Shown: positions 469-57,097 of the stretch, in pieces
How the letters are laid out: every line of letters begins with the position of its first letter
Numbering within the stretch: the first letter of the stretch is position 1
NCBI GenBank assembly: GCA_003220495.1
Contig: QHSP01000017.1
Coordinates: forward strand, 124,001 to 188,000
Direction: 5' to 3'
DNA from: Candidatus Rokuibacteriota bacterium
GTDB lineage: Bacteria; Methylomirabilota; Methylomirabilia; Rokubacteriales; CSP1-6
DNA length: 64,000 nucleotides
Made by a program: the position numbers and the translations under genes
The notes under the pieces: model-generated
What the model was told of the DNA's origin: nothing
What the model saw: the letters and a program-made list of their open reading frames with translations, nothing else
The model's database searches: none

Positions 469-527
469 CAGCAGCGCCCTATGCTCGTCATGTCAGACGT
501 CGCGCGTAGGACGAAGACGGCAGACGC

Positions 528-679
528 GGGACGGAGCGCCGGTGCGGGAGGGGTCGAAGGGACCCGTTCCCGCCATGCGGCGACGGACGCCGCGGGCCCG
601 GATGGAGCCCAGCCGCCGCGGGGCAGCGCACGCGTGCCGCGTGGTCGTCTCGACCCCTCCCGCACCGGTGCTCCGTCCC
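528..679. repeat. Large imperfect palindrome between livM and livH (element 1)
   Basis: The left arm 528-557 and right arm 650-679 are reverse complements over 30 bp with a single mismatch. They enclose a 92-bp GC-rich centre that itself contains short inverted stretches (for example around 563-568). Looser pairing extends a few bases beyond the arms. The 227-bp spacer between the livH stop and the livM start holds essentially only this element. It could be a MITE/REP-like insertion or a long RNA hairpin in the operon transcript. Two similarly built elements occur at 31282-31421 and 56633-56769, with different arm sequences. Confidence 0.85.
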
Positions 680-695
680 GCGCCTCTCGTGGGCA

Positions 696-21975: not shown

Positions 21976-22171
21976 GCCGACGTCGCGCGCCGAGCCGAAC
22001 TGGCGCGGTGGAGTGGGACCCCCTCGTCCCGCCCGCAGCTCGAAGAGCTGCGAATCGGGCGAGCGGGTGACGGAGCCGATCGCCGGACATGGCCCCCGGC
22101 GGAAGGCCCCGTCAGTCGCTCGCTGTGCTCGGGCTCCCGACTGCCGTTAGGTAGTCGCCGCTAAGCGATGG
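21976..22171. other. Noncoding 196-bp spacer with REP-like hairpin
   Basis: Between two convergent genes. The clearest structure is 22030-22061, where CGCCCG (22030-22035) pairs with CGGGCG (22056-22061). Inside it CAGCTC (22036-22041) pairs with GAGCTG (22045-22050) around GAA. There is no U-tract. The rest shows no open frame or recognised RNA. It may serve as a bidirectional termination or mRNA-end structure. Confidence 0.5.
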
Positions 22172-31236: not shown

Positions 31237-31281
31237 TGGCTCGCCCTCTAAGCACGCACGTCGGCGCGCTCGGTAATGTCA

Positions 31282-31421
31282 GGAGCGGGGCCGGGGCAGC
31301 GGTGGGCTCTCGTGAGCCCTGTGTAGGCACGATGGTCAGGGTCGCGACGCACTCAGTGAGTCTACAGCACGCATACGCGCGCAGGGCTCACGAGGGCCCA
31401 CCGCTGCCCCGGCCCCGCTCC
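31282..31421. repeat. Large palindrome (element 2) with 40-bp arms
   Basis: Left arm 31282-31321 and right arm 31382-31421 are reverse complements over 40 bp with one mismatch, around a 60-bp centre. The element fills most of the 190-bp spacer between dppF (stop at 31427) and the start of the alpha/beta hydrolase (31236). It would form a very stable RNA hairpin 5 bp beyond the dppF stop, so it may also end or protect the dpp transcript. There is no T-run typical of an intrinsic terminator. Confidence 0.9.
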
Positions 31422-31426
31422 GGCCG

Positions 31427-32413
31427 CTACCGAGTGGGGACGCCGGTGCGAACCTGGCAGGCGACCCAGTGGCCGGGCGAAACTTCTTTGAGGATCTGCT
31501 CGTTCTCCGAGCAGGACGGCACGCGCAGCGAGCACCGCGTGTGGAAGCGGCAACCCGAGGGCGGATTGATCGGGCTCGGCACGTCGCCTTCGAGCAGGAT
31601 CCGCTTGCGCTTCATCGTGGGGTCGGGGATCGGCACCGCGGACAGGAGGGCTTCGGTGTACGGATGACGCGGGTTGGTGTAGAGCTCCTTGCCCGGCGCG
31701 ATCTCGACGATCTTGCCGAGATACATGACGGCCACGCGCGTCGAGATGTGCTCGACGACCGAGAGGTCGTGAGCGATGAAGAGGTACGTGAGGCCGAACT
31801 TCGACTGGAGATCCTCGAGCAGATTCACGATCTGCGCCTGGATCGAGACGTCGAGGGCGGACACCGGCTCGTCGGCGACGATGAGCTTGGGACTCACCGC
31901 CAGGGCGCGCGCGATCCCGATGCGCTGACGCTGGCCGCCGGAGAACTCGTGCGGGTAGCGCCGTAGATGGTCGGGCAAGAGGCCGACCGTCTCGAGCAGC
32001 TGCACCACGCGCTCCTCGCGCTGCTTTCGCGTGGGCGCCAGCTTGTGAATGACCAGCGCCTCGCCGATGATCGAGCCGACCGTCATCCGCGGATTCAGCG
32101 ACGCGTACGGATCCTGGAAGATGATCTGCATTTCCTTCCGGAGCGCCCGTAGCGACCGCTTGTCGAGCGTCGTCACGTTCTTCCCCTGGAAGGTGACCTC
32201 GCCCGAGGTCGGCTCGATCAGCCGCAGGATCGAGCGGCCCGTCGTCGACTTGCCGCAGCCCGATTCGCCGACGAGGCCGAGCGTCTCACCGGGCATGATG
32301 TCGAAGGACACGTCGTCGACGGCGTGGACGCGAGCGACTTCACGAGACAGAAGTCCGCCGCGGATCGGGAAATACTTCTTGAGGTTCCTGACCTTGAGCA
32401 GAGCGTCTGGCAT
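31427..32413 (-). CDS. dppF: Dipeptide/oligopeptide ABC transporter ATPase DppF-like
   Basis: 328-aa ATP-hydrolysing subunit of a peptide/nickel-type importer. Walker A is '[14 protein letters not shown]', signature '[15 protein letters not shown]', Walker B '[12 protein letters not shown]' and the H-loop '[10 protein letters not shown]'. The C-terminal oligo_HPY region carries '[14 protein letters not shown]', whose cysteines are typical of the [4Fe-4S]-binding C-terminus in this family. The preceding gene encodes the DppD partner, 9 nt upstream. No permease or binding protein gene is adjacent. Confidence 0.94.
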
Positions 32414-56116: not shown

Positions 56117-57097
56117 TCAGCGCGTGTAAGCGGGAAATACGCGCTGCACGCACTCCGGGTCGTTGATCGCCAGCATCCCGCCGACGAGGCGGCGCGCGGC
56201 GCCGCGCACGACCACGAACGTGATGCGCGCCGTCGCGACGACGTGACCGCCGGCGCGCGCGACGATTTCGGTCTCCTGGTAGCGCGGGTCCTCGTTGCGC
56301 GGGCGCACCGAGGCCCGGGCGGCGCTCACCGTGACGGGCGCATCGAACGGGGCGGGTTGGTGGAGGGCGACGCGGAGCTCCGTCGTCATTCCCGATTCGC
56401 CCGTGGCCAACGCGCCGAGCCAGAACGCGGCCTCGTCGAGCAACGTCGTCAGCGCGGCAGGCGCGAGCGAGCCGTCGTCCCTCCGAAACGGCGCGCGCGG
56501 CTGCCACGTCCCACGAACCGTGTCGGCGTCGAACGCGAGGCGTGCGCGAAGCCCGACCGCGTTCTCGGTCCCGCACGCAAAGCACGCACGCGAGACCGGC
56601 AGTGGATACGCGCCTCGCGCGGCGTCGTCGTCGTCGGCCGGGCGGGGGCGGGGTGGCTCCGCGGGGACCACGCCAGCCACTTCGCTCGAGACCAGTGCCG
56701 TCACGTCTCGTCGGTTCGACCCTGACAACACGGGTCTTAGCGGAGCCACCCCACCCCCGCCCGGCCGACTTGGCGCGGCGGTGACCGCATCCGTTGCCTG
56801 CGGCGCGACGCGACCTTCGACGAGGACACTGCCTCCGGCCTCGGAGAGGACGAAGGTGTCGGCCGAGTTTTCGCGCGCGCGGAGCAAGGTCAGCGGGAGG
56901 GCGAGCGGGACGCGGCGGCGGTAGAGGCCCGAGACCTCGCGTGGCGCGGTCACGCTCGAGAGCGCGTCGAACACGGCGAGCACCGAGCCGCCGTGCGCGG
57001 TGTCGGGGAGACCCTGGAGAGCGGGGTCGAGGGTGAGGATCAGATCGCGGCCGCTAACCTCCAGAGCGTGACGAAGCACGGCATCAATAGTGGTCAT
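56117..57097 (-). CDS. Double-HotDog (thioesterase/dehydratase-like) protein with an inserted palindrome-encoded linker
   Basis: 326 aa. The N-terminal HotDog is about 8-98, with 'DPALQGLPDTAHGGSVLAVF' (HGG) and 'VSGLYRRRVPLALPLTLL'. The C-terminal HotDog begins 'ACFACGTENAVGLRARLAFD' (about 171-190), followed by 'LTTLLDEAAFWLG' (conserved Asp/Glu). The linker, about 110-157, is low-complexity (PGGGGVAPL, RPRPADDDD). It is encoded by the inverted-repeat element 56633-56769, so it arose by in-frame insertion. The fold resembles tandem acyl-CoA thioesterases, but no confident active site is claimed. Its start is 14 bp from the divergent MFS gene. Confidence 0.8.
   Translation of the reverse strand: MTTIDAVLRHALEVSGRDLILTLDPALQGLPDTAHGGSVLAVFDALSSVTAPREVSGLYRRRVPLALPLTLLRARENSADTFVLSEAGGSVLVEGRVAPQATDAVTAAPSRPGGGGVAPLRPVLSGSNRRDVTALVSSEVAGVVPAEPPRPRPADDDDAARGAYPLPVSRACFACGTENAVGLRARLAFDADTVRGTWQPRAPFRRDDGSLAPAALTTLLDEAAFWLGALATGESGMTTELRVALHQPAPFDAPVTVSAARASVRPRNEDPRYQETEIVARAGGHVVATARITFVVVRGAARRLVGGMLAINDPECVQRVFPAYTR
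56633..56769. repeat. Palindromic element inside a coding sequence (element 3)
   Basis: Left arm 56633-56662 and right arm 56740-56769 are reverse complements over 30 bp with one mismatch, around a 77-bp centre. It is built like elements at 528 and 31282 but with different arm sequence. It falls in the linker of a two-domain protein and keeps the reading frame open, so translation passes through a potentially strong hairpin. Arms are very rich in G/C runs. Confidence 0.92.

Follow-up and report, generated by a model that had tools for sequence, protein, structure and literature searches.

Small palindromic elements that occur both between and inside genes have been described in several bacterial systems. 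The Rickettsia palindromic elements (RPEs) are about 150 bp long and fall into several families, and some of their copies lie in frame inside unrelated genes, where they are reported to encode a conserved peptide (PMC10969869). The REP, BIME and REPIN sequences associated with RAYT transposases are small palindromes located downstream of genes, sometimes intragenic and sometimes paired head to head, with stems of 5-13 bp tagged by GTAG or CGTC (PMC3733652). MITEs such as ERIC are short and interspersed, intergenic and occasionally intragenic. In the mitochondria of Nematomorpha, long inverted repeats lie inside translated genes and both arms encode conserved protein sequence (PMC6649704).

Here we describe three families (A, B and C) of hairpin-forming DNA elements of about 140-170 bp in soil Rokubacteria, scattered mostly just after genes, with some copies in frame inside genes, where they add a predicted disordered linker between two protein domains. 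As interspersed palindromic elements of about 100-170 bp with copies in frame in unrelated genes (here HotDog, LigD and radical-SAM genes) they behave like RPEs. They differ from RPEs in that the encoded peptide is unconstrained, the arms are not shared between copies and it is the core that is conserved. In contrast to REP sequences, the arms are 23-53 nt long, and a search for the Y1 (RAYT) transposase domain PF01797 gave 0 matches in the genome studied while the control genomes gave hits; a GTAG does occur at the family C junction, but beside far longer arms. Compared with MITEs, no terminal inverted repeat shared across copies was seen, the arms of family A copies being unrelated although outer end motifs are present in some genera. 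Unlike the nematomorph palindromes, the arms in the gene copies encode an unconstrained linker, and the elements are multi-copy with conserved cores. The set appears to be unreported, no paper on it having been found in the literature searched. It would add to an uncultured phylum a large group of palindromic elements with repeated in-frame use of interdomain linkers outside Rickettsia, and it offers many natural replicates for asking how complementary arms stay matched while their sequence changes, and whether selection or DNA repair does it.

Element 3 and its host gene

The window analysed is a stretch of 64,000 nucleotides of a Candidatus Rokuibacteriota genome (assembly GCA_003220495.1, contig QHSP01000017.1, positions 124,001 to 188,000). 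The genome comprises 6 Mb in 159 contigs, and nine genomes of the genus, its own included, were compared (G000 to G008, element 3 being in G000). The features considered are the following.

56117-57097, minus strand: host gene of element 3, a double-HotDog, TesB-like thioesterase-type protein of 326 aa (predicted structure)
56633-56769, minus strand: element 3, a family C palindromic element in frame in the interdomain linker
56740-56769, minus strand: 5' arm on the coding strand, G-rich, 30 nt
56633-56662, minus strand: 3' arm on the coding strand, C-rich, 30 nt
56717-56735, minus strand: family C junction motif ACCCGTGTWGTCAGGGTTG (1 mismatch)
31269-31434, plus strand: element 2, family C, intergenic, with 53-nt arms
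517-690, minus strand: element 1, family B (core about 559-649 on the minus strand), intergenic between branched-chain amino-acid permease-like genes, so named from reading the ORFs
22011-22074, plus strand: intact family A core without detectable inverted arms, in a convergent intergenic region

The two 30-nt arms of element 3 differ by 1 mismatch and enclose 77 bp, and a repeat-finding program extends them to 37 nt at 89%. Five third-order Markov simulations of the window gave no inverted repeat scoring above 17, while the three in the window score 27, 30 and 38, so that the arms are not an artefact of GC content. The stem is extreme, at -108 kcal/mol as RNA (z -9.5). The host ORF is open across the element, although this by itself is weak evidence at 69% GC, since the opposite strand is open across it too (56295-56924, plus strand). 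The predicted structure of the protein has two folded halves and one segment below pLDDT 50 (residues 106-146), most of it encoded by the element, and the best PDB matches are thioesterase II / TesB-type double-HotDog proteins.

The insert is in frame in G003 and G002 and absent from G006, G005, G004 and G001, while G007 keeps only its right part. In other genera four more orthologues have inverted repeats, more divergent, in the same linker, two with the core apparently reversed, all in frame. These comparisons support the proposal of the earlier note that a palindromic element lies in frame in the linker of this gene and behaves like an RPE, with two refinements. The arm sequence, whose consensus the note had suggested searching for, is not the repeated part: a search with the whole element finds no other copy in the genome, and what repeats is the core and its junction motif. 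Moreover, the encoded peptide shows no sign of conservation. Substitutions inside element 3 show no third-position excess (2/9/10 by codon position, against 29/24/72, that is 72 of 125 changes at third positions, in the rest of the gene; G000-G003). The frame is kept, the sequence is not.

Core families, their distribution and the in-frame copies

Scanning about 1.6 Mb of the genome for long inverted repeats gave about 20 candidates, most of whose loops fall into three families, A (about 65 bp), B (about 90 bp) and C (about 60 bp), whose profiles find one another's members separately. The seventeen or so family members found extrapolate to roughly 60 or more in the genome. Core A occurs in 20 of 60 genomes of the order (10 of 27 genera) and core B in 22 of 95 genomes of the phylum (7 genera), all in one family; the copy counts are lower bounds. 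An assembly artefact is unlikely, as the same cores and arms recur in independent assemblies. In contigs of four further genomes (G033, G037, G038 and G041) many family A cores lie within about 150 bp of contig ends, as if the hairpins broke the assemblies.

Element 3 itself is a divergent member of family C. A model trained without it gives E of about 1 for G000 and about 0.01 for its orthologues, and the assignment is carried by the 19-nt junction motif. With up to one mismatch, this motif occurs 36 times in the nine genomes against 0 for the reversed control, and once in the window, inside element 3; 29 of 30 loci examined have 23-51-nt inverted arms around it. The motif was written from element 3 and its relatives, so the control and the arms at other loci, not the match to element 3, are the test.

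In-frame insertion is not limited to the HotDog gene. Two family A copies of G002 fell inside genes, one in LigD, between the ligase and polymerase domains, and one in a B12-binding radical-SAM protein, between its domains. All nine genomes have an element in the LigD linker, with an A core in G000, G002, G003 and G006 and a B core in G001, G004, G005, G007 and G008, the G007 gene being interrupted. The radical-SAM copy is seen only in G002, and five relatives whose linkers were read have no inverted repeat there. Elsewhere, sites occupied in one species are empty in others, with neither arm present, or hold a different family. No target-site duplication could be seen clearly at the empty sites of congeners, but their flanks are about 10-25% diverged, and these sites could be deletions rather than pre-insertion states.

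Among 38 elements, 15 lie between convergent genes, 18 between codirectional ones, 1 between divergent ones, 3 inside genes and 1 is undetermined; by our count the element is nearer the upstream stop in 15 of 17 codirectional cases. The gene context rests on a gene caller of our own making. Two elements of the same family lie side by side in opposite orientation in a BIME-like manner (loci L194, L195 and L203, L205, L206, L224; L numbers are our handles for loci). In other genera, family A elements are nested inside larger inverted repeats (L167, L182, L177 and L186), which in L167, L182 and L177 contain TTCATGA-like ends.

Evolution of arms and cores

Within elements the arms, whose 5' side is G-rich, are on average 94-97% complementary. 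Between family A copies, however, arm identity is close to that of shuffled arms (0.579 against 0.559), although several G002 copies have identical 60-nt cores; about 10 nt next to the core look shared and belong to the core rather than the arm. When the arms were compared with other genomic sequence, only 15-25-nt matches were found in 1.6 Mb, apart from two double elements whose inverted repeats include the cores. At orthologous sites the arms change in step: 322 of 379 left-arm substitutions (85%) keep Watson-Crick pairing and 24 more are retained as G.U, and element 3 alone has 4 compensatory pairs in 3 species. This count is taken only over arms that still pair, which favours pairing. Mismatches on the sense strand are G.T 9 against A.C 20, which is not the pattern expected if transcripts were selected to pair and points to correction at the DNA level, although the counts are small. 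Much faster evolution of the arms than of the flanks at orthologous sites is not supported once gaps are allowed (arms about 0.81, flanks 0.86).

Fourteen family A cores, chosen by hand from several genera, support 22 pairs, 8 of them with double-sided changes. The terminal loop is C-GNA-G in 46 of 51 family A copies with a stem found. This triloop is probably an exceptionally stable mini-hairpin in DNA, which suggests, without proving, a single-stranded DNA role. Hairpins without a core also exist in the genome studied. At L106:16223-16317 perfect 40-nt arms surround a 15-nt loop, and at L096:19139-19287 a 149-bp inverted repeat has near-perfect 40-nt arms that are not G-rich and a loop that holds the family A outer-end motifs GGGCGGGTGGCG and CGACAGGCCCCG.

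Origin and maintenance of the elements

We consider it likely that element 3 is one copy of a group of small, apparently non-autonomous palindromic elements spread through one family of Candidatus Rokuibacteriota, although no mobilising enzyme was found. From the data above we infer that the core is the recognised and spreading part, probably acting as folded single-stranded DNA, and that the arms are kept complementary by hairpin-templated repair or conversion between them, not by selection on the RNA. We read the arm data as arms inherited with the site and corrected against each other, with cores able to be exchanged, the exchange step being inference. The linker copies may survive because the insert has no in-frame stop and adds only a disordered linker.

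A possible, though tentative, alternative is that cores home into, or replace one another inside, hairpins that already exist, the arms being inherited with the site while the core is exchanged. The presence of A cores in four species and B cores in five in the same LigD linker agrees with this view, as do the core-less hairpins (L106, and G007 at the L065 site) and the absence of a site phylogeny in the cores. The outer 24 nt of the arms are also more alike at the same site with different cores than between sites (0.677 against 0.563), although the pairs are not independent. Empty sites, on the other hand, lack any hairpin, so arms also arrive or leave with the core. One may also envisage a two-part mobile system in which a structured core of roughly 60-90 nt spreads between, and replaces cores inside, long DNA hairpins whose arms are continually rewritten in step by hairpin-templated repair, so that core and stem have separate histories, including inside translated genes.

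It is somewhat less likely that the elements are host structured RNAs or bidirectional terminators at gene ends, with base pairing kept by selection on the transcript and the linker copies accidental. The strong 3' bias, the near absence between divergent genes and the covarying core structure would fit this explanation. However, there is no excess of G.U over A.C on the sense strand, no T-run terminator is present at element 2, sites are empty in close relatives and copies occur in frame in genes. In addition, no match to Rfam 15 at the gathering threshold was found in the window, and there were only sub-threshold matches in five loci.

A local inverted duplication, in which the core inserts and copies about 40 bp of the target in reverse so that one arm is original sequence, appears improbable. 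The unrelated arms around identical cores and the right-arm-like sequence in G007 could be taken in its favour. The empty sites at L100, L073 and L119, however, are too short to hold an arm or show none, and the radical-SAM relatives show no inverted repeat, which contradicts this model at these sites unless they are deletions; G007 also keeps the core's end motif, so it is better read as a partial deletion. Retention of the linker because it benefits the HotDog protein is very unlikely in spite of the elements found in the same linker in several genera, as there is no protein-level constraint inside the element, the segment is disordered in the model and the insert is absent from many orthologues.
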